DNA from: a candidate division KSB1 bacterium | GTDB lineage: Bacteria > Zhuqueibacterota > Zhuqueibacteria > Oleimicrobiales > Geothermoviventaceae | DNA: 64,000 bases | Assembly: GCA_034506315.1 (NCBI GenBank) | Contig: JAPDPT010000002.1 | Coordinates: forward strand, 1-64,000 | Direction: 5' to 3' | Notes under the pieces: model-generated | Told to the model about the DNA's origin: nothing | The model's database searches: none | The model's input: only the letters and a program-made list of their open reading frames with translations | Program-made: the position numbers and the translations under genes | In this document: one piece after another, positions 6,585 through 22,994 of the stretch | How the letters are laid out: each line of letters starts with the position of its first letter | Numbering within the stretch: position 1 is the first letter of the stretch

Positions 6585-6585
6585 G

Positions 6586-7596
6586 TTAAGCCTGCGTTTC
6601 CGGAGAAAGCTGGCTGGTCCGGGCCCGGGTTTTCTCGCCGTCCGTCCTCGAGACGAGACCATTGAGCTCCAGTCGCTTGAGCCGGTAGAGGGCGTCCTCC
6701 AGGAGGCGGCGGTTGGAACCGATCAGATCGGCCAGGAGGCCGATCATCCCCACCTGAAAGCCGACGATCGTCAGAATGGCCGCGAGGATCAGGCTCTGGA
6801 CATGCCCCTCGCCGCGCCCGGTGAAGTAGAAGTACAGGAAACGCACCCCGATGAGCACGCCGGACGCGAACAGCAGCCCACCGATCATGGCGAAGGTGCG
6901 CAGCGGTTCGTACATCGTGTAGATGCGGAAGATGGTGCTCACCGAGCGCTTGATGTAGTTCCAGTTGCTTCGGAACAGTCGCGACTCGCGAAGCTTGTCA
7001 TTGGTGCTTACCGGCACGCTGGTAAGGGCGATGTTTTTCTTCCCCGCCTGGATGATGGTCTCCAGAGTGTAGGTGAATCGGGAGACCACGTTCATCCTCA
7101 TGGCCGCCTCTCGGCTCAGCGCCCGGAAACCGCTGGTGGCATCGGGAACATTGGTATTCGAGACCTGGCGAACCACCCAGCTGCCGAGCTTTTGCAGCCT
7201 CTTCTTCAGGGGCGAGAAGTGGGGGACGCGGTCCACCTGCCGATCCCCGATCACCATATCCGCTTTGCCCTCGAGGATGGGCTGGATGAGGCGGCCTATA
7301 TCGCGCCCATTGTACTGATTGTCGGCGTCGGTATTCACGATGATATCGGCGCCGAGGCGCAGCGAGGCGTCCAGCCCGGCCATAAAGGCTTCGGCTAACC
7401 CCTTATTGTTGGTCAGGCGGACAATGTGGTGGACCCCGTGGGCTCGTGCCACCTCCACGGTGCGGTCGGTGCTGCCGTCGTCGATAACCAGAACCTCGAC
7501 CTCGTCCACGCCCGGTATCTCTCGGGGTAGATGGGCGAGGGTGATGGGCAAGGTCGCTTCCTCATTGTAGCAGGGGATCTGGATGATCAGCTTCAC
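6586..7596 (-). CDS. GT2 polyprenyl-phosphate glycosyltransferase (DPM1/GtrB-like) with C-terminal membrane helices
   Basis: This 336-residue GT2 enzyme probably loads a hexose from a nucleotide sugar onto polyprenyl phosphate at the inner membrane. The GT-A fold shows IPCYNEE at residues 7-13, VIDDGSTD at 38-45 and an intact metal-binding D90-A-D92. The conserved SGFRALSR segment and two hydrophobic helices near residues 240-310 follow, as in GtrB-like enzymes, and the protein ends in a basic amphipathic tail. It overlaps the next upstream gene by 4 bp (7593-7596). Together with two paralogues at 7593-9610 it makes a trio of related GT2 genes in one operon. Confidence 0.87.
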   Translation of the reverse strand: MKLIIQIPCYNEEATLPITLAHLPREIPGVDEVEVLVIDDGSTDRTVEVARAHGVHHIVRLTNNKGLAEAFMAGLDASLRLGADIIVNTDADNQYNGRDIGRLIQPILEGKADMVIGDRQVDRVPHFSPLKKRLQKLGSWVVRQVSNTNVPDATSGFRALSREAAMRMNVVSRFTYTLETIIQAGKKNIALTSVPVSTNDKLRESRLFRSNWNYIKRSVSTIFRIYTMYEPLRTFAMIGGLLFASGVLIGVRFLYFYFTGRGEGHVQSLILAAILTIVGFQVGMIGLLADLIGSNRRLLEDALYRLKRLELNGLVSRTDGEKTRARTSQLSPETQA

Positions 7597-8609
7597 GGCA
7601 CCATCCCATCCGCTTGTCCAATGATCTTCTCGATGCTGTACTCCCGGATGTCCCGGGCGTGGGTGAAGATGATCATTTCACCCAGGAGCCCGATGGAGAT
7701 CATCTGGATGCCGATCACCAGCAGGAGCACCCCCAGGAGAAGGAGGGGGCGCCCGGCGATAGCGCCGAATCCCAAAAGCCGGTAGAAGAACAAGTAGCCG
7801 GAGATCACCGTCCCTACCAGAGCGAACACCGCGCCCAAGAACCCCAGAAAGTGCAGAGGCTTCTTCGAATACCGGGTCAGGAAGATCACCGTGATGATGT
7901 CCAGGGCACGATGGAGGTACTCGCGGGGATAGCGGGACTGGCGGAACCAGCCGGGCAGCTGCTCGATCCGCTCTTCGGAGACCCGATAGCCCTGGCGTTC
8001 GGCCATGACGGCCAGAAAGCTATTGAGGTCGCCGTACAGTTGCAGCGATTCCAGGACCTGCCGGCGCACCGCGAACACCCCGCTGTTCACATCGTGGAGT
8101 CGAAGGCCGGTGAGCCGGTTCACCATCCAGTTGAAGGCACGCGAGATGGCGCGATTCAGGAGGGAGTCGCGACGCGGGTAGCGCCAGCCGACGACCATGT
8201 CGTAGCCCTCCTCGAGGCGCTGGAGAAGCCGGCGCAGGTCGCGCGGATTGGGACGAACGCGCACAGTCTGGTAAAGGATGATCTCTCCCCGCGATAGCTG
8301 GAGTGCCGCAGCCAGAGCGGCGGCCTCACCGAAGCGGGCACGCAGACGAACTGCCTGCGCCTCCGGCCAACCTTCAATCCCGGAGGTCAAGCGTTCGAAG
8401 GTGCTGTCGCGGCTTCCGTCGTCCACGAACAGCACCTCGTACGAGAGGCCGAGTTCGCCCGTCAACTGCCGAATCCCTGCGGCGACCTCCGCCACCTCCT
8501 CCGCGTTGTCGCTCAAGACCACGACAACAGAGACACGGGGCCGGCGACGGTTCTCCGCCCCGCCCGCTTTGCTCAACGATGGCTGCAACCGAGCCTCCAC
8601 CTCTGCCAT
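7593..8609 (-). CDS. GT2 paralogue of the GtrB/DPM type lacking the DxD motif (possible pseudo-enzyme)
   Basis: This 338-residue protein aligns along its whole length with the adjacent GT2 at 8657-9610. It has VDDGSRD at residues 62-68, RGEII near 107, a VGWRYPRRDSLLNR segment and two C-terminal membrane helices. The metal-binding DxD of the neighbour (D100-G-D102) is replaced here by T115-V-R117, and the following LQNDP becomes VRPNP. The frame is fully open and spacing is conserved, so this looks like adaptation rather than a frameshift. It could bind partners or lipid without transferring sugar, or use metal-independent chemistry. The ATG at 8609 has GGAGAGG 9 nt upstream; a TTG at 8627 is also in frame. 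Confidence 0.85.
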   Translation of the reverse strand: MAEVEARLQPSLSKAGGAENRRRPRVSVVVVLSDNAEEVAEVAAGIRQLTGELGLSYEVLFVDDGSRDSTFERLTSGIEGWPEAQAVRLRARFGEAAALAAALQLSRGEIILYQTVRVRPNPRDLRRLLQRLEEGYDMVVGWRYPRRDSLLNRAISRAFNWMVNRLTGLRLHDVNSGVFAVRRQVLESLQLYGDLNSFLAVMAERQGYRVSEERIEQLPGWFRQSRYPREYLHRALDIITVIFLTRYSKKPLHFLGFLGAVFALVGTVISGYLFFYRLLGFGAIAGRPLLLLGVLLLVIGIQMISIGLLGEMIIFTHARDIREYSIEKIIGQADGMVP

Positions 8610-8656
8610 GAAACGCAACCTCTCCAACCGTTACCAGCCAGCCGAATCGCGCCAAC

Positions 8657-9610
8657 TCACCTTCTGCGGACTACCCGGTACGGCACAGGACGGTCCCCGA
8701 GCGCTACAATGAGTTTGCCCACCAGGCCGAGCAGGACGAACTGCATGGCCGCTGCCAGGAGCAGGAATACCAGGCTCGCCAAGATGTTGAGCTCGCTTGC
8801 GTCCGGACTGCCGCTTGTCAGCTTGGTGGCCATTGCCACCCCGAAGCCCAATGCCGCCAGGAGGCAAACGGCCGCGAGCTTGCCGAAAAAGTGCAGGGGA
8901 TTCCGCTCGTACTTCAGCAACAAGCTCAGCGTGAACAGGTCCATGATCACCTTGTAGGTGCGCGTGATGTTGTACTTGGACTTGCCCGCCACCCGGGGAT
9001 GATGCCGGACCGGCACTTCCGCAATCCGCCCCTCCTCCAAACGGGACAGAGCGGGAATAAACCGATGGAGCTCTCCGTAGAGCCGGATGCGATCGATGAT
9101 CTCCCGCCGGTACGCCTTGAGGGCGCAGCCGGTGTCGTGGAGCCGGACACCCGTCACGGAGCAGATGAGGCGATTGGCAAGCCAGCTCGGGACCTTCCGG
9201 ATGAGAAGCTTATCTTTGCGGTGGCGTCGCCAGCCGCTCACCACGTCAAACCCTTCCTCAAGCTTTTCCAGCAGAAAGGGGATATCCGCGGGATCGTTTT
9301 GCAAGTCCCCGTCCATGGTGATGATGATGCGTCCGCGGGCGTTTTCGAACCCTGCAGCCAGGGCAGCCGATTGACCGAAGTTGCGACGCAGGCGCACCAC
9401 GCGTACCCGCGGGTCGACCGCTGCCAGGTGCTCCAGAAGGCGCGGCGAGGCGTCGCGACTGCCGTCGTCGACGAGGATAAACTCCCACGGGAGTCCAAGC
9501 TGATCCATCGTCTCCGTAACCCGGCGGTGAAGGGCCTGGATGTTCCCTTCCTCATTGTAGATCGGAACCACGATGGAAAGATCAACCGCGGCCGGCTCAG
9601 TCGTAGGCAT
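8657..9610 (-). CDS. GT2 polyprenyl-phosphate glycosyltransferase (GtrB/ArnC-like)
   Basis: This 317-residue enzyme is a canonical polyprenyl-phosphate hexosyl- or aminoarabinosyl-transferase type GT2. It has VPIYNEEGN at residues 15-23, VDDGSRD at 47-53, an intact D100-G-D102-L-Q and NDP motif, VSGWRRHRKD, the VRLHDTGC segment, and two C-terminal hydrophobic helices that anchor it in the inner membrane. I chose the ATG at 9610, since upstream in-frame residues do not resemble the family and a GGGA lies about 6 nt before it. A 229-nt gap precedes it. Its product could be the lipid-linked donor for the GT39-like enzyme at 2585-4348. Confidence 0.88.
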   Translation of the reverse strand: MPTTEPAAVDLSIVVPIYNEEGNIQALHRRVTETMDQLGLPWEFILVDDGSRDASPRLLEHLAAVDPRVRVVRLRRNFGQSAALAAGFENARGRIIITMDGDLQNDPADIPFLLEKLEEGFDVVSGWRRHRKDKLLIRKVPSWLANRLICSVTGVRLHDTGCALKAYRREIIDRIRLYGELHRFIPALSRLEEGRIAEVPVRHHPRVAGKSKYNITRTYKVIMDLFTLSLLLKYERNPLHFFGKLAAVCLLAALGFGVAMATKLTSGSPDASELNILASLVFLLLAAAMQFVLLGLVGKLIVALGDRPVPYRVVRRR

Positions 9611-9839
9611 GGTTGTCCCATCCAGATACAATTTCTTCCCTCTACCGCGCCATCCAGGAAGCGAAGGACCGAAGAGTGCCCGCCACAAACTCGGCCACAA
9701 TCGCAGCCGCCTCCACGAATGGGAGGCTATCGCTTATACTCCAGGCTGAAACGGCTCTCTACCTTTGCCGACGCAGGTTGCCTGCGATGCGACCAGAGGC
9801 GTTGCCAAGATGGTGCCAAATGCGGGGCCGTCGGTGGGC
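9611..9839 (-). other. 229-nt intergenic stretch with two short hairpins
   Basis: No coding sequence with a ribosome site was found here. It contains a 6-bp stem with a 3-nt loop (CGCAGG/CCTGCG at 9772-9786) and a second 6-bp stem (GCCTCC/GGAGGC near 9710-9730). TATAAG near 9736 resembles a -10 box on the minus strand but lacks a matching -35. It may hold a weak internal promoter for the GT2 trio. Confidence 0.3.
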
Positions 9840-10802
9840 TTAGGCGGAGGAATCCGCGGCGTGCTGGTCCAAGGCCGAGGCCCAGTGAACCAATCCCCCC
9901 AGCGCTGCCAGGAAGAGAGCTTGCACGAAGAACAGGAGCGAGACAGAGAAAGCCACCTCCGCCGGCACGCCGACCTGCCCGAGCAGGGCCACAAAACTGG
10001 CTTCCCTGACGCCCAGCCCGGCAAAAGCGATCGGGATGGCCGTCAGAATCGTCACAGCGGGCACGACGAAAAGGTACACCGCAGGAGAAGCAATGGCCCC
10101 CACACTGAGTCCCAGCAAATACACAATGATCACCCCCAGACACTGGTAGACGATGCTGAGGGCGAACACCAGGAGGATGCTCTGTCCCCCTCGGAAACTG
10201 GCCGCGAAGGCCTGCCGGATTCCGGCCACCGTTTGGGCCAGGCGGCTGGCCCGCGTTCTTTGAAGGGCGCGCTCCAGAGGCAGGAGGACGCGCGGCCACG
10301 CGACGGCAGCCAGACAGCAAAGGAACACGCCGAAACACAGAACGAGAGCGGGACCGAATCGATAGAGCATTTCCCGCGAAGACGGGAAAAAGTAGGCGCA
10401 CCCAGCCAGGAAAAACAGAGCCCCGAAGCCAATCGCCCGCGTGGTCACCAGAGTGGCGGCCGCCTCGGTTACGGGGGTCCCGAACCTCTTCAGGTACAGA
10501 GCCCGGACCACATCGATCCCGAGGCTACTCGGAAGGAGGGTCCCGTAGAAGTTGCCAACCAGGTGGGCGTACAGCACGGCGCGAAGTCGCATTGGTCCAG
10601 CCGCGTGCCGGATGACCAGGAGCCAGGTCAGCACCATCAGGAACTGCTGGACGAAGAGCACCAAAAAAGCCCCGGCCAGAACCGCGCGTCTCACCGACCC
10701 GAGGACCGCCGTCAGCTTGGGCCAATCGATGCGGGTCGCCAAAATCCAGAGGATCAGACCGCTCAGAACAACTTTGGCTGCCAATTTCAACCGCGCGGAC
10801 AT
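9840..10802 (-). CDS. UPF0104/LPG-synthase-TM family membrane protein
   Basis: This 320-residue protein is an integral membrane protein of the family that includes the transmembrane part of lysylphosphatidylglycerol synthase (MprF). About eight hydrophobic helices are visible, with family-typical segments NFYGTLLPSSLGIDVVRA near residues 85-105 and IPIAFAGLGVREASFVALL near residues 250-270. Members lacking the soluble synthetase domain are often encoded beside polyprenyl-phosphate glycosyltransferases, as here, where they may be lipid-related transporters; that role is not proven. The ATG at 10802 directly precedes the first hydrophobic helix. An earlier in-frame ATG would reach into the upstream gene. 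Confidence 0.82.
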   Translation of the reverse strand: MSARLKLAAKVVLSGLILWILATRIDWPKLTAVLGSVRRAVLAGAFLVLFVQQFLMVLTWLLVIRHAAGPMRLRAVLYAHLVGNFYGTLLPSSLGIDVVRALYLKRFGTPVTEAAATLVTTRAIGFGALFFLAGCAYFFPSSREMLYRFGPALVLCFGVFLCCLAAVAWPRVLLPLERALQRTRASRLAQTVAGIRQAFAASFRGGQSILLVFALSIVYQCLGVIIVYLLGLSVGAIASPAVYLFVVPAVTILTAIPIAFAGLGVREASFVALLGQVGVPAEVAFSVSLLFFVQALFLAALGGLVHWASALDQHAADSSA

Positions 10803-10891
10803 GCCGTTGTACCCGTTCCTCTTGGCCGGGACCGAGACCGCCTGTTCCGGGGATAGCGGCTGAGGCCTAAGGTGCCCACTGCCGCAACGGT

Positions 10892-12691
10892 TCAGGCAAC
10901 TGGATCCTGGAGGTTCAACTCCTCCCAGCTCCTCAGCCACAGCTCCAGCACGTAAAGCGCCCAAAGCCGGTGCGAATGATCGTGGCGCCCTTCGGAGGTC
11001 TCCCTGATCATTTCCTCGAGGCGATCGGCCCGGACGAGCTCCCACTGGACAATCCTCGGATTCCGGAGCAGGGTCTGCCGCACCTCTGCGCTGAGGACGT
11101 TGTCTTCGCGCAGCCACTTACGCATCGGAACGCTGTGCCCAAGCTTGTCCTTCCGATAGACGATCGCGTCCGGGAGGATCCCCTCCATGGCCTTCTTCTG
11201 GATGTACTTCTGTTCCCTGGAGTTGGGAATCTTCAGCTCTCCCGGAATGCGAGCGCAGAAGTCCACCAGCTGCGGATCGAGCAGCGGACACCGTGCACGG
11301 ATCCCGAAGGCGCGAAGGAGAGAAAGCCGCCGCAGGTAGAATTGCACCACGGTGTAATAGTCGCCGAAGAGGGCGCGGTCGAGCTCGTCCGGCCAGGGAA
11401 GCGCCGCGTAGAGTTCACGGAGCCAGGCAAGCTGGGCGCCTTCCCGTACCTGGGGCCACAGTCCGGGTGACAGCAACGCTTCCAGTTCCCTGGGCGAGTA
11501 GTAGAGACGCCAGCGGTTGCTGTGGAACGCGCGCGGAAACCTCTGTCCCTGAACGAAGCGCTTGAGCTTCACGCTGAGACTGCTCTTCCGGTGCGACTCC
11601 GGGATCAGCCTGGCAACCCACGTTACGGGCCAACGGGCGAAGGCAGGGACTCTTTCCCAGGCTCTGGCCGCGCGGTCAGCCAGATAGACGGGATGGCCGG
11701 CAAAGAGCTCGTCGCCCCCATCGCCCGTCAGCAAGACCTCGATCTTGCCTGATGCGTGCTGACCCAGCAGGAAGGTGGCCACCTCGATGCCCAGGTCGGC
11801 CTGCGGCTCGTCCATGTGGCGCACCATCTCCGCGGCGGCCAGGGCTCGCTCGGGCGTGTACTCGACCTGTTCGTACGTCGCCCCGTAGTGACGAGCCACC
11901 AGGGAAGCGTAGTGGGACTCATCGTAGGTCTCCACCGGGCAACGGAAGGAGAAGGCGCGCAGTTGCCCGGGCCGATATTGGCTCGCAAAGGCCATCACCG
12001 TGCTCGAGTCCATTCCCCCGCTCACCGACACACCTACCTGCTCATTTTCCGGCAGGCGAACTCGCACGGCGCGGTCGAACTGACTCCGCAGCTCCGCAAT
12101 TAGTTCGCCGACGCTTCCGGAGAACTTGTTTCCAAAGTCCGGGGACCAGTACCGCTCGCAGGTGACTTGGCTCCCCTGGATCCGTACAAGACATCCCGGC
12201 GGCACCTTGTGCACGTTGCGGATGAGCGTTCTGCCCGAGGGATTGTAGTTCAAAGTCAAGTAGGTCGCGAGGGCATCGTAATCGAGAGCCTCGGGAAAGC
12301 GAGCCCCTGCTGCCAAGGCCCGTAAGGAGGTGCTGAATTCTGTGTGGCCTTCGTCCGTGAGGCGAAAGTACAGCGCCTCCACGCCCAGATGGTCCCGCAC
12401 CAGGATCAGTTCTCCGCTCTGGCGGTCGAACAGAGCGGCGGCGAATCCCCCGTTGAGCTTCCGAAATAGGGCTGGTCCCTCCTGGCTCAAACGGTCGAGG
12501 AGACGTTTGGCGCACCCCGCAGGGGCCTCACCCCCAGGGCACCCCAGGAGGTCGCCCCTGATCGCCAGCTGATAACGCTCGTTGGCGGCCAACTCGGAGA
12601 ACAGAGACCGATCCGCGGGTCCAGAGGTCCGAAACTTGACCTGAAGCTCTTTGCGACCATCCGGAGTGACCAACACAGCGCCGTGCATCAT
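10892..12691 (-). CDS. Asparagine-synthetase-like amide ligase lacking the glutaminase cysteine
   Basis: This 599-residue protein has the two-domain architecture of AsnB. The ATP-pyrophosphatase domain is intact, with SGGMDSS at residues 224-230 and GDGGDELFAG near 320. The N-terminal class II amidotransferase domain is shortened and degenerate: it starts MMHGAV instead of MCG, and lacks the RLSI and NGEIYN glutamine-binding motifs, although RDHLGVEALYF (99-109) remains. It therefore should not hydrolyse glutamine. Known family members without the cysteine include beta-lactam synthetases, which join an internal or external amine after adenylation. A good ribosome site (GAGGTG) precedes the ATG. 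The substrate here is probably a polysaccharide precursor or peptide substituent, by context only. Confidence 0.82.
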   Translation of the reverse strand: MMHGAVLVTPDGRKELQVKFRTSGPADRSLFSELAANERYQLAIRGDLLGCPGGEAPAGCAKRLLDRLSQEGPALFRKLNGGFAAALFDRQSGELILVRDHLGVEALYFRLTDEGHTEFSTSLRALAAGARFPEALDYDALATYLTLNYNPSGRTLIRNVHKVPPGCLVRIQGSQVTCERYWSPDFGNKFSGSVGELIAELRSQFDRAVRVRLPENEQVGVSVSGGMDSSTVMAFASQYRPGQLRAFSFRCPVETYDESHYASLVARHYGATYEQVEYTPERALAAAEMVRHMDEPQADLGIEVATFLLGQHASGKIEVLLTGDGGDELFAGHPVYLADRAARAWERVPAFARWPVTWVARLIPESHRKSSLSVKLKRFVQGQRFPRAFHSNRWRLYYSPRELEALLSPGLWPQVREGAQLAWLRELYAALPWPDELDRALFGDYYTVVQFYLRRLSLLRAFGIRARCPLLDPQLVDFCARIPGELKIPNSREQKYIQKKAMEGILPDAIVYRKDKLGHSVPMRKWLREDNVLSAEVRQTLLRNPRIVQWELVRADRLEEMIRETSEGRHDHSHRLWALYVLELWLRSWEELNLQDPVA

Positions 12692-12717
12692 CTTCTTTCA
12701 CCTCGGAATCTCTTTCT

Positions 12718-13947
12718 TCACTTCGCATTGCTGGAGGCTGTGCGGCCCAGGGCCCCTTGTCTTCGACTGCTCTCCCTCCAAAGCCGAGTGGCCTCGCGAA
12801 ACCGGATTCGCAGTGCCTCCCCCATGGATATCGACCCTTCTCCTGGGAGAGTGCGCAGGAAGACCTCATCGAGCCTCCAAAGATGGCGCAAGCCGCCCTC
12901 CTGATGATTTCGCCACGATGCGGGCTGGGCACCCCAGTGAACCGCCCTGTACCCACATTGCCGCATCGCCCCGAAGTGGCGCCGGGAAGCTGTGAACCAA
13001 GGCAAACAGAGGTGCTGCACCGGCTGGCCCATCCTCGCTTCGAGTTCAGCCCGTGCCCGGCCGAGCTCCTCACGGACCAGGCCCTGGAGCTCGTCCGCGG
13101 TCGCCCAATCGAAGGCATCGCGGACGCTCCGGAGAGCGCGTTCGTACGCCTCCCGCAGTCTATTGCGCCATCCCGGGTCTTCGAAGAACCTCCTTCCGCC
13201 CCCGCGGCGGACGACTTCTGTACAGAGCCCCGTGAGCTTTGGCGACACCCGGAGGCAACGATCCGTTGCGAGGAGCGGCGCCGAGAGGAACACAGGGGCA
13301 CCGAGCACTGCCTCCTCGCCCCTCTCGGTGATCAGCTCCCGCACCCGGAGTGGCAGATGCGTGTTGGCAAATTCCCTGCCGAGCGCAGCCGGTGTGACAA
13401 ATCCCACCAGAACGGGTTCTGTCTCCACCAGGACGTGGCGGTGGGTGTGAGACTGAAACTCGATCCGCCCCGTGGCAGCCATCGCCTCCATTTCCGGCCA
13501 GGTGCAGAGACGGGTCTCGGGTAAGCCCGTCTCCGCTTCCCTTTCGTGGCCAGAAGCGTGTCCCGCTTCGCCGGGAACGCAGCCTGTCACCACGAAGGCC
13601 GTCGCCTGGAACCCGAACTCCCTGAGCAGGGGGAACGCAGAATCAAAGAGGGACCGCCGCGCGTCGTCAAAGGTCAGGGCTACGCACCTCTCGGCTGCCG
13701 CTGCAGGGGAAGAAAGCTCGCTCACCCGCAAGGTCTTGTAGCCATTGGCCGCCAGAAACGCCAGTTGATCCCGAAAGCGATCCGCCTTCACCGTGTGGAA
13801 TACGAAGATAGGCGGCTGCCCCCCGGGTAATATTCCGCCGCTCTGGAGTCTGCGCCACAGCCCGCTGCGGAGCATCCAGTAGAGGTCGTCGAGATTCTTG
13901 CGGTACATCCACGCAACACGATGGCGCCAGCGCCGATACACGTCCAT
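12718..13947 (-). CDS. NodB-type polysaccharide deacetylase family protein with large insertion
   Basis: This 409-residue protein contains a carbohydrate esterase 4-like core. It has FHTV at residues 50-53, the metal-site motif TFDDA at 92-96 (usually TFDDG) and SHTHRH at 166-171, matching the H(S/T)xxH zinc-binding motif. About 120 residues of charged, arginine-rich sequence are inserted before a C-terminal motif (LCLPWFTASRRH near 315) that resembles the family's late RxPxG region but lacks its consensus. No signal peptide is visible, suggesting cytoplasmic or membrane-associated action on an N-acetylated lipid-linked sugar. It starts 7 nt after the upstream glycosyltransferase stop. Confidence 0.75.
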   Translation of the reverse strand: MDVYRRWRHRVAWMYRKNLDDLYWMLRSGLWRRLQSGGILPGGQPPIFVFHTVKADRFRDQLAFLAANGYKTLRVSELSSPAAAAERCVALTFDDARRSLFDSAFPLLREFGFQATAFVVTGCVPGEAGHASGHEREAETGLPETRLCTWPEMEAMAATGRIEFQSHTHRHVLVETEPVLVGFVTPAALGREFANTHLPLRVRELITERGEEAVLGAPVFLSAPLLATDRCLRVSPKLTGLCTEVVRRGGGRRFFEDPGWRNRLREAYERALRSVRDAFDWATADELQGLVREELGRARAELEARMGQPVQHLCLPWFTASRRHFGAMRQCGYRAVHWGAQPASWRNHQEGGLRHLWRLDEVFLRTLPGEGSISMGEALRIRFREATRLWRESSRRQGALGRTASSNAK

Positions 13948-13954
13948 GGGATCT

Positions 13955-15106
13955 TCAGCGACTCAGGAGATTCCGGTACAGTTCTCCCAGTTGAGCGGCG
14001 CTCTGCTGGATGCTGAAGCGTTGCGCGTTGCGGCGCCCCTTTTCCCCCAGCTCCGCGGCCAGCTGGGGATCCTCGTAAAGCCGCCGGATCCCCTTCGCCA
14101 GAGCCTCAGGGTCCGCCGGTGGCACCAGAATGGCATTCTCCGGCGAGCCTACTGCCTCGGGGATACCCCCCACCGCGGTGGCCACAACCGGCTTCCCACA
14201 AGCCATTGCTTCCACGACGCTCAGGCCAAAACCCTCTCGGATCGAAGGGACCACCACCGCATCCAGCGCCGTAAGAAGCGACGGGATCTCGTCCACATGC
14301 CCCAGGAACTGAAGGGTCCCGCTGTCGAGGCCCAGGGCCCTGGCCTGAGCCAGCAGATCCTCCCTCTGGGGTCCGTCGCCCGCGACCACAAAGTGCATTT
14401 GGGGAAGTTCCTGGTGCAAGCGGTGGGCAGCCTGGACAAAGAAGTGCACTCCCTTTTCCTCGCGCAGCCGAGCGGCGACGCCCGCAATCCAAGCTTCCTC
14501 AGGCAGGCCGAACTTGCGCCTCAGGGATGGAGGTGGGACATTCACGCTGAATCGGCCCAGGTCGATGCCGTCGTAGATAACCGCGATCTTCTCCTCCGGC
14601 ACGCAACGTGCGTTGGCCATAAAGTCGCGGACTCCGTGGGAGACGGCCACGCCGCAGTCGGTCCGGTTCCTCAGGAGCCAGTCGCCTATCCAGAACCATG
14701 GCTTCTTTTTGAGCACGGCGTGCTCGTGGATCACCGCTCGGCACCCACAGCCCGGCGCAGCCAGTCGGACCAGGTAGGATGCGTAGTACCCATGGCCGTG
14801 CAGAATCTGGGCACGGTGCTTCTCGGCAAGTTCGCGCACCTTTCGCACGTCCCGGGGCAGGCGGAAAGCGCCGGAGCGAAACCACTCGAGCCTAACCCCG
14901 TTCTCCTCGACGAAATCACACCCGCGGTCGTAGCGGAGGTTCACCACGACCATCTCGAAGCCAGAGGAAGGGGCCCAGCGGTTCCAGTCTACCAGCAGCC
15001 GGGCAACGCTGCTCGGGTTCACCCCATCCATCGAGAGCTTATCGATGACGTGAAGGACCCGGATGAAGCTCGGGCGCTCCAGGAGGGCGCGATCAGGCTC
15101 CTGCAT
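13955..15106 (-). CDS. GT4 glycosyltransferase
   Basis: This 383-residue GT-B enzyme is a typical retaining GT4 transferase. The N-terminal domain has VLHVIDKLSMDG and HGHGYYASY. The C-terminal domain shows GVAARLREEKGVHFFVQA around residues 207-225, VVAGDGPQRE, FLGHVDEIPSLLTALDAVV, and the EGFGLSVVEAMACGKPVVAT segment with its EX7E catalytic pattern near 295. The ATG at 15106 overlaps the upstream acyltransferase gene by 14 bp and has GGAG 8 nt before it; an ATG 18 nt earlier lacks this. It likely adds one sugar of the repeat unit on the cytoplasmic face. Confidence 0.88.
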   Translation of the reverse strand: MQEPDRALLERPSFIRVLHVIDKLSMDGVNPSSVARLLVDWNRWAPSSGFEMVVVNLRYDRGCDFVEENGVRLEWFRSGAFRLPRDVRKVRELAEKHRAQILHGHGYYASYLVRLAAPGCGCRAVIHEHAVLKKKPWFWIGDWLLRNRTDCGVAVSHGVRDFMANARCVPEEKIAVIYDGIDLGRFSVNVPPPSLRRKFGLPEEAWIAGVAARLREEKGVHFFVQAAHRLHQELPQMHFVVAGDGPQREDLLAQARALGLDSGTLQFLGHVDEIPSLLTALDAVVVPSIREGFGLSVVEAMACGKPVVATAVGGIPEAVGSPENAILVPPADPEALAKGIRRLYEDPQLAAELGEKGRRNAQRFSIQQSAAQLGELYRNLLSR

Positions 15107-15866
15107 TGGCCTTCTCCGCAGCACTTTCCAGGCGGGATCTCACCACGCGAGCGGGCATTCCGACGGCAATGGCATAGTCGGGGATGTCGGAGTTCACGAC
15201 CGCTCCTGCCCCAATGATGGCGTCGCGGCCTACCCGGCAGCCGTCCAGCACAACCACGTGGGCACCGATCCAGGCGTTATCGCCGATCTCGATGCCTCGC
15301 GCTTCGCGAGGCTGGTCGATGATGGGAACATCGGTGCGGGCAAACGTGTGGGTGCCGCCCACGAAGTAACTGTATGCAGCCACCAGGATGTTCTTTCCCA
15401 GCCTCACAGATCCCGCCGAGAAAACCTCGCAGTTGAAACCGATATTGGCGCCGTCGTCGATCGCGATGTCGCCGTTCTTGCAACTGAGGATCGTGTTCCT
15501 GCCCAGAAATACCCCGTTGCCGATGCGAATGCCTTGATTTGCCCAGCCCTTGGCGTCCAGGACGCAGTTGTCGTCGATCACCACGTTGTCACCGATCTCG
15601 ATCTTGCGAGGGTGACGAATGACCACGTTGGTGCCAAACGTCACATTGCGGCCTACCCTGCCCAGGACTAATGGGTAGAGTTTGGCGCGGAGCACCATTC
15701 CCAGCGCCCCCGGAACCCACGAAGCCAGGAGCATAATAAGCTCGTACTTCAGCAGAAACCAGAGGCTCGTACTGCCTACGACCAGCTCCTGATATTTCCT
15801 GAGCTTTCCTCCCTTCTTGTCGAAAAGCTCTTTCTGGATATCGATGTGATCGCGCTCATCGCCCAT
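15093..15866 (-). CDS. Left-handed beta-helix acyltransferase (hexapeptide repeat)
   Basis: This 257-residue protein is predicted to O- or N-acetylate a sugar of the surface polymer with acetyl-CoA. From about residue 75 the sequence shows imperfect hexapeptide repeats ([IV]GxNxx type), such as IEIGDNVVIDDN and VRLGKNILVAAYSYFVGGTHTF, whose histidine lies where the catalytic His of the family is found. A C-terminal VGMPARVVR cap is typical. The N-terminal 70 residues include a hydrophobic amphipathic stretch (WFLLKYELIMLLASW) that could attach it to the membrane. The ATG has a strong AAGGAGG 7 nt upstream. Confidence 0.87.
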   Translation of the reverse strand: MGDERDHIDIQKELFDKKGGKLRKYQELVVGSTSLWFLLKYELIMLLASWVPGALGMVLRAKLYPLVLGRVGRNVTFGTNVVIRHPRKIEIGDNVVIDDNCVLDAKGWANQGIRIGNGVFLGRNTILSCKNGDIAIDDGANIGFNCEVFSAGSVRLGKNILVAAYSYFVGGTHTFARTDVPIIDQPREARGIEIGDNAWIGAHVVVLDGCRVGRDAIIGAGAVVNSDIPDYAIAVGMPARVVRSRLESAAEKANAGA

Positions 15867-15944
15867 CCCACGACCTCCTTAAAGCTCCGCCTCGTCGGCC
15901 GTCGGGTCTACCGACCTGCCTAATCTGCAGGCGCACCCCCGGTT

Positions 15945-17003
15945 CTACAGCCAGCCGTGAGCCCGGTACCATTCCGCTGTCCGTTTCAGCCCCGTGTCGA
16001 GATCTACCTTGGGTCGATAGCCAAGCAGGGTTTTGGCTTTGGAGATATCGAAAGCGCGGTTTTTGGTGAAGAAATCGAGTCGACGTGGGTAGAGGGGCGG
16101 CTCCACCCGGAGCAAGCGGCAAAGCCTCTCGCAAAGGTAGGCGGCCGCCAGGACGGGCCCGACCGGTACATGCCGGATTCTGACCTCTACGCCCAGAGCT
16201 CGGCCGATGCGGCGCACCAGTTCGTTCAAGGACAAATACTCCTCACCCGCCAGGGTGAACACTTCGCCCTGGATCTCTCGCCGCTCGGCTGCCAGGATCA
16301 TCCCCTCCACCAGATCTTCGACGTAGGTCATCTGATAGAGGACCTCCCCGTCGCCGATCATCGTGAAGGTCCCTCGCGCGGCTCCGCGGAAAAGCTTCAG
16401 GAAGCGGCGGTCGCCTGGACCGTAGATCCCAGCCGGGCGCACCACGATCCCCGACAGACGGGTCGAACGGAAGAATTCCAGAGCGGCCAGCTCTCCCAGC
16501 ATCTTGCTTCGCTGATAGTGATCCCCAGGATTGTAAGGGGTCTCTTCGGTGGCCGGGGGATGGCGGATTTCCCCTTGTACCCCCACGGTGCTGCAGTGCA
16601 GGAATCGTGCTACGCCTGCCGAGACAGCGGCCTCCAGAAGCCGGCGCGTCCCCTCGACGTTTACCTCGTAGAATTCGCGGACGGAGCGCCCCTCGCGGCG
16701 GTAGAGGGCGGCCACATGGTACACTGTCTCCACCCCTTCGCAGGCCCGGCGCAGCGATTCCTGGTCCGCGAGGTCCCCTACGACAATTTCGATCCCATCG
16801 GGCTCCAGCAAGCCCAGTCTTCCCGGGTCCCGGACCAGCGCCCGCACCCGGTAGCCCTTCTGTCGGAGCGCCTGGGTGAGGTGACTGCCCGTAAATCCCG
16901 TTGCGCCGGTCACCAAAACCGGCCCATTCGCCGACCCGTTTGCCACTACGGCCACTCCAGCTTTCGCCTGTACGACCCTCGGGATTAACCCATACCACTT
17001 CAC
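15945..17003 (-). CDS. NAD(P)-dependent epimerase/reductase (extended/atypical SDR, HpnA-like)
   Basis: This 352-residue SDR has a Rossmann motif GATGFTGSHL near residues 33-42, a VGDLAD acidic segment, and catalytic Y-x-x-x-K as YQRSK near residue 165. Its overall pattern resembles dihydroflavonol-reductase/HpnA-type sugar or sterol-like SDRs rather than GalE. About 30 residues precede the Rossmann fold. The GTG at 17003 is used here, but another GTG at 16946 has GGAG 8 nt upstream and would give a family-like N-terminus, so the shorter form is quite possible. It lies between asnB and the acyltransferase, so a sugar-nucleotide or lipid-sugar substrate is likely. Confidence 0.75.
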   Translation of the reverse strand: MKWYGLIPRVVQAKAGVAVVANGSANGPVLVTGATGFTGSHLTQALRQKGYRVRALVRDPGRLGLLEPDGIEIVVGDLADQESLRRACEGVETVYHVAALYRREGRSVREFYEVNVEGTRRLLEAAVSAGVARFLHCSTVGVQGEIRHPPATEETPYNPGDHYQRSKMLGELAALEFFRSTRLSGIVVRPAGIYGPGDRRFLKLFRGAARGTFTMIGDGEVLYQMTYVEDLVEGMILAAERREIQGEVFTLAGEEYLSLNELVRRIGRALGVEVRIRHVPVGPVLAAAYLCERLCRLLRVEPPLYPRRLDFFTKNRAFDISKAKTLLGYRPKVDLDTGLKRTAEWYRAHGWL

Positions 17004-17012
17004 GCCTTGCGG

Positions 17013-18899
17013 TCAGGCAAAGCGCTCGCGCCACTTCATGAACATGAACAGCGCCCAGAGGCGATGGCTGTGGTTCTCCACCCCGCGCATATGCTCATCG
17101 AGCAGTCTGTGCACATAGGAAACGTTGAACAGCCCCGTCGCTCGCAGCTTATCGGGCGCCAGGACCGAAAGAACCATGTCGCGCAGCTCATCTCGAATCC
17201 AATTCTTGATCGGGATACTGAACCCTTCTTTGCCGCGCGTGAGGATCTCGGTTGGCAGCGCATCGCGGAACGCCTCTTTGAGGATGCGCTTGCGTACCCC
17301 TTTCCAGACCTTATAGGGGGCGGGCATCCTTAGGGCCAGCTCCACGATCCGATAGTCCAGGAGGGGGACGCGGACCTCGAGGCTGGTGGCCATGCTCATT
17401 CGGTCAACCTTGACCAGGATATCATCGACGAGATAGGTGCGCACGTCGACGTAGATATCGCGGTTTAGCCAGTCGAGGTCAGAAGCCTCCTGGAAGTATC
17501 TCCAGATGTGCTGGAATCGAGCCTCCTCGTCGTTCTGAGCCATAAGGTCGGGGCTGAGGAGCTGCCGTCGGTCCTCCTCGCTCAGGAAAATCATCCAGCG
17601 AACGTGATGGAGGGACGCGGGATAGCGAGCGCCTTCGACGAAGCGCTTGTAGGTGTTAATCACGCCCTTCTTCTTCGAGGTGGGTGGCAAAGCACGAGCC
17701 AGAGGCTCCGCCACTCCTCTCCACAGGAAGCCGGGTACAATCGGCAGATAGCGCTGGGCCAGACGATCCGCCACGTAGGTGTCGTAGCCGCCGAAGAGCT
17801 CATCGCCGCCGTCGCCCGAGAGGGCGACCTTGACGTTCTGGCGCGCGTTCTGGGAAACGAGATAGGTCGGGAAGACGCTGAAATCGCCAAGGGGCTCGTC
17901 CAGGTGGTAGATCAGTTTCTCCACGAGCTCCACGGCTCGCGGCTCGATGATCGCCTCGTGATGGCGGGTGGCGTAGCGTGTGGCTACGAGCCGCGCGTAG
18001 TGAAGCTCGTTGTAGCTGCTTTCCCGGAAGCCGATGGAAAACGAGCGCACCGGCTCCGAGGCTTCCCTGGCCATGGCCGCCGTCACGACGCTGGAGTCGA
18101 TTCCGCCGCTCAGAAACACGCCCAGGGGCACATCGGCAATCAGGCGCAGGCGCACGCTGTCGTGCACCAGCCGGCGCAGCTCCTCAACGGCCTCCTCATA
18201 GCCCACAGGGCCAAGCTCGCGATAGGGGCGTAGCGGGTCCCAGAAGGGCCGCAGCTGCGGCTCGCGTCCGTCGAAGACCAGATTGTGTCCCGGCGGAAGC
18301 TTGCGAATCCAGCGGAAAATGCTGTACGGTGCGGGGATGTACTCGTACGTGAGGAAAAGCTCCAGGGCCAGAGGATCCAGGTCCCGTTTGACACCCGGCA
18401 CCTCCAGAATGGACTTGATCTCTGATCCCCAGGCGAAGAGCTTCCCGTCCCAGTAATAGTACAGGGGCTTGATCCCCACGCGATCCCGCGACAGGAAAAG
18501 CTGGTGGCGCCGCGAATCCCAGATCGCGAACGCCCACATTCCGTTGAAGCGGGTCACACACTCGTGCCCGTACTCCTCGTAGGCGTGGACGATCGATTCG
18601 GTGTCGCTGCGGGTGACGAACCGGTGGCCGCGACGGACAAGCTCCTCCCGAATCTCCCGGTAGTTGTAGATCTCGCCGTTGAAGACGACGGCGATGGTCC
18701 CGTCCTCGTTGAAGATGGGCTGGCTACCGGAGCTCAGGTCGATGATGCTCAGGCGACGCATGGCCAGACCTACCCGGCCGTCCCAATAGAAGCCGTCCTC
18801 GTCGGGGCCGCGATGGGTGATGACCTTGGCCATGCGGCCAAGCAGGGTTTTCTTGTCCTCGGGCCAGTTCTCGCAGTAAAGGCCGGCTATGCCGCACAT
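17013..18899 (-). CDS. asnB: Glutamine-hydrolysing asparagine synthetase homologue
   Basis: This 628-residue enzyme has a complete AsnB architecture. The nucleophile Cys2 is present (MCGIAGLY), with RRLSI at 48-52, NGEIYN at 74-79, and RDRVGIKPLYY at 138-148 in the glutaminase domain. The synthetase domain has SGGIDSS at 264-270 and GDGGDELFGGYD. It should transfer glutamine-derived ammonia to an ATP-activated carboxylate. In polysaccharide loci such enzymes (for example WbpS in Pseudomonas O-antigen clusters) amidate uronic acids, which fits the UDP-uronate genes nearby; plain asparagine synthesis is the alternative. It overlaps the upstream glycosyltransferase gene by 13 bp and has a GAAGGAAG ribosome site. 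Confidence 0.88.
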   Translation of the reverse strand: MCGIAGLYCENWPEDKKTLLGRMAKVITHRGPDEDGFYWDGRVGLAMRRLSIIDLSSGSQPIFNEDGTIAVVFNGEIYNYREIREELVRRGHRFVTRSDTESIVHAYEEYGHECVTRFNGMWAFAIWDSRRHQLFLSRDRVGIKPLYYYWDGKLFAWGSEIKSILEVPGVKRDLDPLALELFLTYEYIPAPYSIFRWIRKLPPGHNLVFDGREPQLRPFWDPLRPYRELGPVGYEEAVEELRRLVHDSVRLRLIADVPLGVFLSGGIDSSVVTAAMAREASEPVRSFSIGFRESSYNELHYARLVATRYATRHHEAIIEPRAVELVEKLIYHLDEPLGDFSVFPTYLVSQNARQNVKVALSGDGGDELFGGYDTYVADRLAQRYLPIVPGFLWRGVAEPLARALPPTSKKKGVINTYKRFVEGARYPASLHHVRWMIFLSEEDRRQLLSPDLMAQNDEEARFQHIWRYFQEASDLDWLNRDIYVDVRTYLVDDILVKVDRMSMATSLEVRVPLLDYRIVELALRMPAPYKVWKGVRKRILKEAFRDALPTEILTRGKEGFSIPIKNWIRDELRDMVLSVLAPDKLRATGLFNVSYVHRLLDEHMRGVENHSHRLWALFMFMKWRERFA

Positions 18900-20086
18900 G
18901 TCGTCTTCCTTCTGGCGATGGCCTCCGTCGCCGCTGCCAGGAGCGTCTGTCGATAGCGCTGGTCGCTGAAACGCGTAGCGGCGTACCGCTTTGCTCGTTC
19001 GCCGAGGTCTCGTCGCAGTCCCTCATCGTGCAGGAGCCTGGAGAGGGCCGCAGCGAAGGCCTCCGGCTCGGGTGCGACCAGTGCACACACGTCCGGGCTC
19101 AGGACCTGAGTGTGGCTCCAGATGTCGGTGGCCACAATCGGCTTGCCCGAGCGGAGGTACGAGTAGATCTTCAAAGGCGTATTGGTCCCCGATACCCGCG
19201 GAGAGACCAGGACATCGGCCGCACGCACGAGGTGGTCGGCCGCACCCGGATGAACCGTTCCGAGGAAGTGTACGAGCCCGTCGAGACCCAGCTCTTGCGC
19301 AAGGCCCCGGTACGCTTCAACCTGGTCGGTGTGGCCGCCGGCGATCAGTAGGCTCCCCACCCAGGCGCTCCGATCACGCAGGATTCGCACGCTGGAGAGC
19401 AACAACTCCATTCCCTGGTAAGGCTCAAGGGTGCCCACGTACACAACCCAGGGACGCGGAAGAGCGCTGTCCAGTGTCAGGGAACCCGGCGTTCCCTCAT
19501 CCCAAAGGAAGCTGTAATCGAGGGTGTTTTCCAGCAGGTAGAGCTTGTGGCCAAAGCCCAGGGCCTGGACGTAGCGGCGCAAGTCTTCGCAGATCACGAG
19601 CACAGAATCGCAATGGGACAGGATAAATCGTTCGAGGCTTTCCATGGTCCGGATCGCCCAGCGGGAGGAGGAGAAACGGAAGTTGGTCATCTGCTGCGCC
19701 AGACTGGAGTGCATGTCGTAAACGTGAGCACAGCCGGTGAATTCCCGGAGGAAGGCACCCACAAGCCCCGCTTCCTCGTGCGTGTGGACCAGGTCGTACC
19801 GGAAGGGCCGCCAGACGCTCAGCGTCCTGGCCAGAAGGAGTGCGTCCAGCACGGGCTTAATCCAGCTGGGACCCACCTTCACGCGGCGCACTCCGGGCAG
19901 CGCCCAGATGCGGTGAAACCTCACCCCCGGCAGGGCCACGTCCTGACCCAGGTGGTAGGTCACCAGATCGACCCTCACACCCTCGTCGGAGTACGCTTTG
20001 AGGCGCCCCACGACGCTAAAGGGGGTTCCCCGCGGCGTAAAGACCGGTTCGGGAGCAAGCATTAGGACACGTCTGGGCACTTCCAC
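18887..20086 (-). CDS. GT4 glycosyltransferase
   Basis: This 399-residue GT-B glycosyltransferase shows VLMLAPEPVFTPRGTPFS at its N-terminus, HTHEEAGLVG near residue 95, and in the C-terminal domain VVYVGTLEPYQGMELLLSS, FLGTVHPGAADHLVRAADV and GTNTPLKIYSYLRSGKPIVA, the GT4 donor-binding segment. I chose the GTG at 20086 because GGAGGA lies 9 nt upstream and the protein then starts like the family; a longer in-frame extension is arginine-rich and unlike a real N-terminus. It overlaps asnB by 13 bp, indicating coupling. Confidence 0.85.
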   Translation of the reverse strand: MEVPRRVLMLAPEPVFTPRGTPFSVVGRLKAYSDEGVRVDLVTYHLGQDVALPGVRFHRIWALPGVRRVKVGPSWIKPVLDALLLARTLSVWRPFRYDLVHTHEEAGLVGAFLREFTGCAHVYDMHSSLAQQMTNFRFSSSRWAIRTMESLERFILSHCDSVLVICEDLRRYVQALGFGHKLYLLENTLDYSFLWDEGTPGSLTLDSALPRPWVVYVGTLEPYQGMELLLSSVRILRDRSAWVGSLLIAGGHTDQVEAYRGLAQELGLDGLVHFLGTVHPGAADHLVRAADVLVSPRVSGTNTPLKIYSYLRSGKPIVATDIWSHTQVLSPDVCALVAPEPEAFAAALSRLLHDEGLRRDLGERAKRYAATRFSDQRYRQTLLAAATEAIARRKTTCAA

Positions 20087-20153
20087 CGCGACGATCCTCC
20101 GACGCAGGCATGGCCTGAGACGAGAACGTACGGGTCGGCATCCTCCGCGCCGC

Positions 20154-20178
20154 GCCCGGGGGTATCGGCCCCGCGGGC
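20154..20178 (-). other. GC-rich hairpin after UDP-glucose dehydrogenase gene
   Basis: A 9-bp stem with one bulge and a 6-nt loop lies 24 nt past the dehydrogenase stop in a 115-nt gap. No T-run follows on the minus strand, so it is at best a partial terminator or an RNA-processing element. Confidence 0.3.
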
Positions 20179-20201
20179 GGAGCACGGCCTTCTCGACGGC
20201 T

Positions 20202-21506
20202 CTACCGCCCTACCCCTTCGTACACGAAGCCCTCTTTCTCCATTTTCGGACGATCGTAAACATTCTTCAAATCGACCATGATGGGTTGCTTCATCACTGC
20301 CTTGAGGCGGGCAAGGTCCAGGCTGCGGAACTGGTTCCACTCCACAGCCAGTACCACGCAGTCGGCGCCAGTAGCTGCCTCGTAGGCATCGGTACAATAG
20401 GTGACGCCGTCGGCGTTCAGGACCTTCTTCGCTTCTTCCATGGCTGCGGGGTCGTAGGTTCGCAGCTTGGCCCCCATCTTGAGCAGCTGCTGCCCGATCC
20501 AGATGGCAGGGGCTTCCCGAACATCGCTGGTGTTCGGCTTGAAGGAAAGACCCAGGAGGGCGATGGTTTTCCCTTCCACTTCCCCCAGGACTTTCTTGAT
20601 TTTGTCGAGCATGCGACGCCGCTGCCGTTCGTTGACTTCGATGACCGCCTTCACGATCTGCAGCTCCACCCCGTACTTCTCCGCCACTTTTACGATGGCC
20701 CGGGTATCCTTCGGGAAACAGGAGCCGCCGAAGCCGGGGCCGGGATGGAGGAACTTGCGACCAATCCGATTGTCCAGGCCCATGCCCTTGGCCACGTGGT
20801 GCACATCGGCGCCCACGGCCTCGCAGAGATTGGCGATCTCGTTGATAAAGGAGATCTTGGTCGCGAGGAAGGCGTTGCTGGCGTACTTGATGAGCTCCGC
20901 CGTTTCGAGGTTGGTGATGACGAACGGCGTCTCAATGAGGTACAGGGGCGAGTACAGATCTTTCAGGATCGCGATGGCCTCCTCGCTGTCGCTCCCGATC
21001 ACCACCCGGTCCGGCCGCATGAAGTCTTCGATCGCGGAGCCCTCCCGCAGGAACTCGGGATTGGAGGCCACGGCGAAGTGGCTGGGGGTCGTCTGGTGCT
21101 TCTTGATCAGCTCTTTAATCCACTTGCCGGCCCCGACGGGCACGGTACTCTTGTTGACGATCACCTTAAAGCCGTTCATGTAGCGGGCGATGTCCTTCGC
21201 CACTTGCTCGACGTACTGCATATCCGCCGAGCCGTCCTCTCGGGATGGCGTGCCCACGGTAATGAAGATCACCAGGGAGTTCTCGACGGCCGACTTGAGA
21301 TCCGTGGTAAACGTCAGCCTCCCTTCCTTCACGTTGCGGGCGACCATTACGTCCAGGCCCGGTTCGTAGATGGGCAGCACGCCGCGGTTCAGGTTGTCGA
21401 TCTTCTCCTTGTCGATATCCACGCAGACGACAAAGTTTCCGAACTCGGCGAAGCACGCGCCCGTGACCAGTCCAACATAGCCGGTTCCCACCACACAGAC
21501 GTTCAT
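20202..21506 (-). CDS. ugd: UDP-glucose 6-dehydrogenase
   Basis: This 434-residue enzyme oxidises UDP-glucose to UDP-glucuronate with two NAD+. The N-terminal NAD-binding motif GTGYVGLVTG is at residues 7-16, the substrate-loop segment ASNPEFLREGSA follows near 147-158, and the catalytic cysteine is C263 in FGGSCFPKD. The C-terminal domain has GLSFKPNTSDVREAP, also diagnostic. Length matches the TuaD/Ugd family. A GGGAGG ribosome site lies 6 nt before the ATG. With the UDP-glucuronate 4-epimerase-like gene at 23004 it supplies UDP-GlcA and UDP-GalA for the polymer. Confidence 0.96.
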   Translation of the reverse strand: MNVCVVGTGYVGLVTGACFAEFGNFVVCVDIDKEKIDNLNRGVLPIYEPGLDVMVARNVKEGRLTFTTDLKSAVENSLVIFITVGTPSREDGSADMQYVEQVAKDIARYMNGFKVIVNKSTVPVGAGKWIKELIKKHQTTPSHFAVASNPEFLREGSAIEDFMRPDRVVIGSDSEEAIAILKDLYSPLYLIETPFVITNLETAELIKYASNAFLATKISFINEIANLCEAVGADVHHVAKGMGLDNRIGRKFLHPGPGFGGSCFPKDTRAIVKVAEKYGVELQIVKAVIEVNERQRRRMLDKIKKVLGEVEGKTIALLGLSFKPNTSDVREAPAIWIGQQLLKMGAKLRTYDPAAMEEAKKVLNADGVTYCTDAYEAATGADCVVLAVEWNQFRSLDLARLKAVMKQPIMVDLKNVYDRPKMEKEGFVYEGVGR

Positions 21507-21536: not shown

Positions 21537-22994
21537 TCAAGCCGCTCCGTAGCCCGTCAGGACCACGAAGACGGTCTTGAGCATAATCTTGAAGTCCAAC
21601 CACAGGGACCAGTTGTCGATGTACTCGAGGTCCATTTGCATCCAGCGCTCGAAGGGAACCTTGTTACGCCCGCTCACCTGCCAGATGCAGGTCAGGCCCG
21701 GTTTCAGGCTCAGCCGGCGCCGTTGCCAGACCTCGTACAACTCCACCTCGACGGGCAAAGCTGGCCTCGGGCCCACAATGCTCATATCCCCCTTCAGGAC
21801 GTTGAAGAGCTGCGGCAACTCGTCGATGCTGAACTTCCGCAGGATTCGACCAATGGGCGTCACGCGAGGATCCCGCTTCATCTTGAACACGGGCCCGTTC
21901 ATCTCGTTCATGCGCAGAAGCTCTTGCTTCTTTCTTTCTGCTCCCGGAACCATCGTCCGGAACTTGTAGAGGGTAAACTTGCGCCCGTTGAGGCCGCAGC
22001 GCTTCTGCTTGAACAGGACCGGTCCGGGCGAGGTAAGCTTGATCAGAATGGCGACCACCAGCATCAGGGGGGAAAACGCAATTAGCATCAAGGAGGCCAG
22101 CACGATGTCCAGCAATCGCTTGATAAACAGTTGCCACTGCTTAGCCCGGAACGTCTCGAATTCCAGCAGCGGGAAGCCATTGAAGTCGGTCTGACGAATT
22201 TTGGCGATCTTGAGGTTGTAGAGATCGAGGGAGACGGCCGTGCTGATCCCCAGGTTCTCGCAGGCCATGATGGCCTCGTCGATCCGGTGCAGCCAGAGGC
22301 GAGGAACCACGAAAATCACGCGGTCGATCACCTTCCGTTGCAGAATGAAGGGAATGTCCTGGATACGCCCAAGGACGCGGTAGCCCTCCACCTCTTTCCC
22401 GAACATCCCGTGTTCATCGTCGATGAGACCGACGATCCGCAGGCCCCAATGCGAGTTCTCCTTCACGGCGCGGATGAATTCGCGGGCACGCTTACCCGTC
22501 CCCACGATGAGCAAGTTGATCTGGTTGTACCCCTTGCGGTGTACACTGTCCAGGAATTTGATGAGCAGGTACTTCTCCCCCATCAGGATGACCATCGCCA
22601 CCACCGAGCAGGTCACCAGGTAGAGCCGGCTGGTGAGCTGCCACTTGAACAGGAAGGCGATGGCCGAGGTGGACAGGGTGGCCAGGATCATCCCCTTGCC
22701 GATCGCCGCATTGATCTCCCTCAGGCGGCGCATCCGGAAATGGGAGTAGATGCCCTGGGCTGCCAGCAGGATCAGCCAGGAGGCCACAAAGGCCACCAGC
22801 AGCCCGACATTCCGGAGGGTGAAGTAGTAGAGGCCCGACCAGTCGGGGGCGATGGCAAACGCCTTCTGCGAAAGGCCGAACGCGCTGCGGATGTACTCAT
22901 CCACAAAATACGCCAGCTCGAAGCCCACCACGAGCATCGTGGCGTCCAGGATGCGCATTACGTGGACGAGGAATTTTTCCCTTTCGCTGATCAT
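21537..22994 (-). CDS. Undecaprenyl-phosphate glucose/galactose phosphotransferase, WcaJ-like (polyprenyl glycosylphosphotransferase)
   Basis: This 485-residue membrane enzyme should start repeat-unit synthesis by moving a hexose-1-phosphate from UDP-hexose to undecaprenyl phosphate. About four N-terminal helices are followed by a CoA-binding-like domain (LLIVGTGKRAREFIRAV near 170). The catalytic C-terminal domain is complete: KRLLDIVLAS membrane hairpin, GPVLFKQKRCG, LYKFRTM, SIDELPQLFNVLKGDMS, VGPRPALP, and LKPGLTCIWQVSGRN. This is the only intact initiating transferase in the window. It lies 9 nt downstream of the epimerase gene. Confidence 0.93.
   Translation of the reverse strand: MISEREKFLVHVMRILDATMLVVGFELAYFVDEYIRSAFGLSQKAFAIAPDWSGLYYFTLRNVGLLVAFVASWLILLAAQGIYSHFRMRRLREINAAIGKGMILATLSTSAIAFLFKWQLTSRLYLVTCSVVAMVILMGEKYLLIKFLDSVHRKGYNQINLLIVGTGKRAREFIRAVKENSHWGLRIVGLIDDEHGMFGKEVEGYRVLGRIQDIPFILQRKVIDRVIFVVPRLWLHRIDEAIMACENLGISTAVSLDLYNLKIAKIRQTDFNGFPLLEFETFRAKQWQLFIKRLLDIVLASLMLIAFSPLMLVVAILIKLTSPGPVLFKQKRCGLNGRKFTLYKFRTMVPGAERKKQELLRMNEMNGPVFKMKRDPRVTPIGRILRKFSIDELPQLFNVLKGDMSIVGPRPALPVEVELYEVWQRRRLSLKPGLTCIWQVSGRNKVPFERWMQMDLEYIDNWSLWLDFKIMLKTVFVVLTGYGAA

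Follow-up and report, generated by a model that had tools for sequence, protein, structure and literature searches.

A glutaminase-deficient asparagine synthetase paralogue in the surface-polysaccharide loci of KSB1 bacteria: a candidate glutamine-independent amide synthetase

The stretch of DNA analysed here (the window) comprises the first 64,000 nucleotides of contig C2 (JAPDPT010000002.1) of a candidate division KSB1 bacterium (assembly GCA_034506315.1), whose genome of 3.4 Mb is 99% complete. A polysaccharide cluster of the Wzx/Wzz/Wza type spans 1.3-27 kb of the window on the minus strand and encodes two homologues of the asparagine synthetase AsnB, which we call proteins A and B:

10892..12691, minus strand: protein A, an AsnB paralogue of 599 residues without Cys2, with a dead glutaminase domain (residues ~1-190) and an intact ATP-pyrophosphatase synthetase domain (~195-590)
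17013..18899, minus strand: protein B, an intact glutamine-dependent AsnB-type amidotransferase of 628 residues

Protein A has lost its glutaminase site, conserves its ATP site, evolves under purifying selection, forms a clade of its own and is linked to B. We regard it, with moderate confidence, as an active glutamine-independent amide synthetase of the surface-polysaccharide pathway, of which we infer the catalysis, the carboxylate and the amine.

The loss of the glutaminase site is evident from an alignment of 34 distinct A and 22 B sequences. All 34 A sequences have lost Cys2 through a two-residue deletion of Cys2-Gly3, and R49, L50, S51, N74, E76 and D99 are lost as well (D99 being retained in 4 of the 34), while all seven residues are invariant in B. 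By the Cys2 nucleophile and the glutamine-binding residues, A therefore falls outside the glutamine-dependent AsnB enzymes. The N-terminus of A reads MMHGAV and the open frame of 601 codons begins just two codons ahead of that Met, so that no upstream start with a Cys is hidden; this frame and the agreeing orthologues rule out a misannotated start or a frameshift masking Cys2. An original prediction for this DNA had described A as a homologue with an intact ATP site that lacks Cys2 and the glutamine-binding motifs, which is correct, except that the glutaminase domain as such has not disappeared: PF13537 can still be recognised in the window's A (41.5 bits) and in 32 of 32 orthologues. The intact AsnB that it had placed beside A, with Cys2, RRLSI, NGEIYN and SGGIDSS, is borne out by B, and the coordinates and frames of both proteins hold. 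B starts with MCGIAG, contains MRRLSIIDL, NGEIYN and LSGGIDSS, and reaches 498 bits against TIGR01536 (cut-off 267), as expected of a glutamine-dependent AsnB.

The synthetase half is preserved in both proteins. PF00733 is matched over its full length by A (228 bits) and B (350 bits), and both possess the SGGxDSS motif and the pyrophosphate (PPi) loop of this ATP-pyrophosphatase domain. The SGGxDSS and GDGGDE loops, for ATP and PPi, are invariant in all 34 A sequences (SGGMDSS, with Leu in place of Met in two), as is a catalytic-type Lys matching K557 of B. In its pocket A has invariant or nearly invariant residues of its own, HPVY, RC, RWRxYY and FYLRR, and the B counterparts are YDTY and KVDRMSMA. 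The suggested structure prediction of the 599-residue protein gave a confident AlphaFold2 model (predicted local distance difference test, pLDDT, 90.2; predicted template modelling score, pTM, 0.92). Its Foldseek neighbours are, in this order, TsnB9, beta-lactam synthetase and AsnB; for B the order is TsnB9, AsnB and beta-lactam synthetase.

The ratio of nonsynonymous to synonymous substitution rates (dN/dS) was estimated for seven pairs, and the values are approximate, several dS being above 1. In the synthetase domain of A it amounts to 0.06-0.11 in six of the seven pairs (one pair being saturated), comparable to the 0.04-0.08 of the C-terminal domain of B. The N-terminal domain of A shows 0.13-0.24 in six pairs and 0.048 in one outlying pair whose dS approaches saturation, against 0.07-0.09 in the N-terminal domain of B. 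The dead glutaminase domain of A is thus relaxed yet still constrained, and these ratios exclude that A is a recent pseudogene. In a tree of 39 rows A forms a single clade outside B (Shimodaira-Hasegawa-like approximate likelihood ratio test, SH-aLRT, 99); the tree search was a fast one and some branches are long, so that the tree does not place the exact sister of A.

A-class matches (at least 330 bits, against at most 289 bits for the next class; table read by hand) occur in 45 of the 82 KSB1 phylum genomes searched. A was probably ancestral in the phylum and lost once, since it is also present in other classes of the phylum. In 34 of the 45 genomes a B-class match is found 6-28 kb upstream of A, sharing its contig and strand; in the remaining 11, A and B are on separate or short contigs, and A without B was not found in the genomes searched wherever contigs were long enough. 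Among 26 A-bearing loci of ~20 kb, the order B, short-chain dehydrogenase/reductase (SDR), hexapeptide acyltransferase, A is kept in all 26, and 18 of them have a deacetylase near A. A search for the pair in other exopolysaccharide loci with UDP-glucose dehydrogenase (Ugd) and an epimerase had been suggested; the pair does recur, and Ugd lies inside only 13 of the 26 loci. Beyond the phylum, A-type proteins were absent from 297 Bacteroidota genomes, where the two matches found both carry Cys2, and the viral contigs searched yielded generic AsnB only, with no GHPVY-type member. Spread of A by plasmids was considered and rejected, as the best plasmid matches have 31.5% identity and are mostly annotated as ordinary AsnB.

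Twelve A-less loci retain B, the SDR, the hexapeptide acyltransferase and much of the remaining cluster. In these loci the SDR is 38-48% identical to that of the window, versus 52-61% in loci with A from outside the window's genus, and the acyltransferase 39-50% versus 52-68%. B, the family 4 and family 2 glycosyltransferases (GT4, GT2) and WcaJ show no such drop. Because the SDR and the acyltransferase, unlike these other proteins, diverge where A is missing, the pattern points to SDR, acyltransferase and A as one sub-module.

The window's HpnA-like SDR, its hexapeptide acyltransferase, one GT4 and the polysaccharide deacetylase are all encoded between B and A. Another GT4, Ugd, the WcaJ-type initiating transferase and the SDR of the UDP-glucuronate-4-epimerase type lie upstream of B. 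The cluster (all on the minus strand) reads as follows:

1320..2588, minus strand: Wzx-type flippase
4523..5539, minus strand: NAD-dependent epimerase/dehydratase
5523..6662, minus strand: GT4-type glycosyltransferase
6586..7596, minus strand: GT2 glycosyltransferase
7593..8627, minus strand: GT2 glycosyltransferase
8657..9700, minus strand: GT2, polyprenyl-phosphate glycosyltransferase-like
9840..11117, minus strand: flippase-like membrane protein, LPG_synthase_TM (this mechanical open reading frame overlaps A; the true start is probably at ~10829)
12718..13947, minus strand: polysaccharide deacetylase (PF01522; signal peptide not evident by eye)
13955..15124, minus strand: GT4 glycosyltransferase
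15093..15866, minus strand: left-handed beta-helix (hexapeptide) acyltransferase, WcaF-like
15945..17003, minus strand: HpnA-like NAD-dependent SDR (TIGR03466 189 bits, under its cut-off)
18887..20185, minus strand: GT4 glycosyltransferase, upstream of B
20202..21506, minus strand: UDP-glucose 6-dehydrogenase, Ugd/TuaD-like (TIGR03026 489 bits)
21537..22994, minus strand: initiating polyprenyl glycosylphosphotransferase, WcaJ/EpsZ-like
23004..23987, minus strand: UDP-glucuronate 4-epimerase-type SDR (motifs SSVYG and RFFTVYGPRQRPDM; 199 bits against the 'epimerase domain' group of 6zl6, taken here as UDP-glucuronate 4-epimerase)
24004..26334, minus strand: Wzz plus BY-kinase chain-length protein
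26374..27318, minus strand: Wza-type export protein

The dehydrogenase and the 4-epimerase-like gene that had been proposed nearby are therefore both in place. A 4-epimerase-type gene occurs in most loci, A-plus and A-less alike, and Ugd is found at a strict threshold in 50 of the 82 genomes, including most A-bearing genomes whose locus is without it. UDP-uronates are likely available to these organisms, because Ugd is present inside or outside the locus and the 4-epimerase-type gene is common, but this does not tie A to them in particular. Open reading frames without a Pfam match also occur in the cluster (320-1246 in the window; L054:7735-9300 in the locus of a relative). In 15 of the 26 A-bearing loci (e.g. 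L007:5110-6840), B and the SDR are separated by a GlpD-like FAD dehydrogenase. A pyrroline-5-carboxylate reductase (P5CR) stands beside or near A in nine of them (L007:11732-12547, L042:3468-4289 and seven others), which may hint that the substrate is an amino acid or a cyclic imine. A FemAB-like/GNAT protein (PF13480) is encoded downstream of A in six loci (e.g. L042:2302-3447) and just upstream in one.

Among known systems, a plausible model for B is WbpS, the AsnB homologue that forms uronamides in P. aeruginosa O6 and H. pullorum; the H. pullorum wbpS mutant was interpreted as bearing HexNAcA in place of HexNAcAN (PMC6025236). Like B, WbpS is an AsnB-family amidotransferase whose glycan pathway includes a nucleotide-sugar dehydrogenase. 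Unlike A, it is described as an amidotransferase, and the available portions of PMC6025236 do not describe a Cys-less paralogue with it. Several AsnB genes in one exopolysaccharide cluster are already known: the Zoogloea/Aquincola cluster has two asparagine-synthase genes (PMC9012009), and that of Rubrivivax has three, a wbpS-like mutant changing its growth mode (PMC3684757). Thauera has one such gene near a polysaccharide deacetylase (PMC4784049). A polysaccharide cluster with multiple AsnB genes is not new. The Zoogloea, Rubrivivax and Thauera genes belong to other phyla, and their Cys2 status is not stated in the available parts of PMC9012009, PMC3684757 and PMC4784049, nor did these parts mention a conserved Cys-less AsnB branch. 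The Zoogloea-type cluster is accompanied by PEP-CTERM proteins, whereas an exosortase was sought in the window's genome and none was found. A literature search for enzymes making amino-acyl uronates returned nothing specific.

Named AsnB families were also compared. The XrtA/PEP-CTERM amidotransferase model TIGR03108 is the top NCBIfam model for both proteins, and it was rejected at 240.1 bits for A and 629.1 for B (cut-off 816.9). N-acetylglutaminylglutamine amidotransferase (TIGR03104; A 185.6, B 437.3 bits, cut-off 570.1) and lasso peptide cyclase (NF033535; A 148.9, B 259.5 bits, cut-off 525) were likewise discarded.

The hydroxyamidotransferase TsnB9 (7ylz) is the best fold and profile match of A, at 16% identity. 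This AsnB homologue uses a non-ammonia nitrogen nucleophile and keeps an active glutaminase-type site that releases it; A differs in having lost that site. Beta-lactam and carbapenam synthetases (1jgt, 1q15) share with A the AsnB fold, in which the glutaminase domain is non-functional and the ATP site intact; they differ from it in sequence (~15-20% identity) and in setting, the locus of A being a polysaccharide cluster and not an antibiotic one. The beta-lactam synthetase logic proposed for A agrees with the abandonment of glutamine, the invariant ATP loops, the purifying selection and the Foldseek rank, and A has the dead glutaminase domain on an AsnB fold that is a trait of that enzyme. It does not extend to the Tyr-Glu dyad (Tyr348/Glu382): at the position of AsnB Glu348, within GDGGDE, A carries an invariant Asp324, where beta-lactam synthetase has Tyr348, the Tyr position being the only one of the dyad that was aligned. 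The best reading, in our analysis, is that A is a phylum-specific protein with beta-lactam-synthetase-like logic, not a member of that family. To our knowledge, characterised Cys-less AsnB relatives all come from antibiotic and peptide pathways.

In the pathway that we envisage, A would activate a carboxylate as acyl-AMP in its intact AsnB-type ATP-pyrophosphatase site, and an amine other than glutamine-derived ammonia would attack this intermediate to give an amide. The candidate amine is a sugar amine freed by the adjoining deacetylase, or an amino compound. A, the HpnA-like SDR and the hexapeptide acyltransferase could together constitute one modification step. B would serve the basal pathway as its glutamine-dependent amidotransferase, most likely in a uronamide-forming, WbpS-like step; the substrate we infer for it, UDP-glucuronate (UDP-GlcA) or UDP-galacturonate (UDP-GalA), would be supplied by Ugd and the 4-epimerase. 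Tentatively, A might even found a new class of AsnB-derived ligases that link the amine of an amino sugar or amino acid, instead of ammonia, to an exopolysaccharide carboxylate, yielding a polymer with two kinds of amide, one through B and one through A.

Several points weigh against this reading of A and B. The A-less loci form one clade in our trees, so that the shift of SDR and acyltransferase with A is a single phylogenetic event and the covariation is unreplicated. The deacetylase, Ugd and P5CR are each missing from some A-bearing loci, and hence none of them fixes the amine or the carboxylate of A. Finally, AsnB-type synthetase domains can use free ammonia, as established with Cys mutants of AsnB. 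A real though less likely rival, in our view, is that A is in this sense an ammonia-dependent synthetase, which turns free ammonia into a primary amide (a uronamide or another) and whose glutaminase decayed because ammonia was abundant or delivered by another protein. The fully conserved synthetase site would suit such an enzyme, and so would the N-terminal nucleophile (Ntn) domain kept as a folded relic in all members, as if glutaminase catalysis alone had been lost; however, the pocket residues conserved across A differ from those of B, a change that glutaminase loss alone does not need, and the loss is common to the whole A clade and kept through the phylum while the neighbouring B retains a full glutaminase. 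Much less probable still is that A merely assists B, without catalysis or as a regulator, for instance as a heteromeric subunit, with B performing all chemistry: this would account for the closeness of the genes and for A not having been found without B on sufficiently long contigs, but not for ATP and PPi loops and a Lys invariant in 34 of 34 sequences, for dN/dS as low as in B, or for B occurring without A in at least 12 loci.

The role of B is a further point against the pathway as drawn, since B may also make asparagine in the window's genome, which encodes AsnRS, has no AsnA (profile match against its cut-off, in a search of the 82 genomes) and has B as its only intact AsnB. A third AsnB-like protein of this genome, which also lacks Cys2 and has a changed PPi loop (SGVSGDL), is encoded at ~120.7-122.6 kb of contig C1 (L092:8701-10566). 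It belongs to a second polysaccharide locus, which also encodes C-methyltransferases, Wzx, Wzy_C and a DUF3473 deacetylase. It is conceivable, though doubtful, that B is the organism's asparagine synthetase and A alone takes part in polysaccharide chemistry, or that both make asparagine; this would be compatible with our preferred explanation of A. AsnA exceeds its cut-off in 26 of the 82 genomes, many of them carrying the A-B pair, and in many genomes with AsnA the polysaccharide locus still contains B, which argues that B is not purely housekeeping. The genome also encodes GatB, so that tRNA-dependent formation of Asn is possible.

If A is indeed a glutamine-independent amide synthetase, a monophyletic, phylum-wide Cys-less branch would carry beta-lactam-synthetase-like logic to cell-surface glycans, and A would be a candidate enzyme for amide-linked polysaccharide substituents, for which KSB1 bacteria offer a natural comparison of A-plus and A-minus states at one and the same locus.

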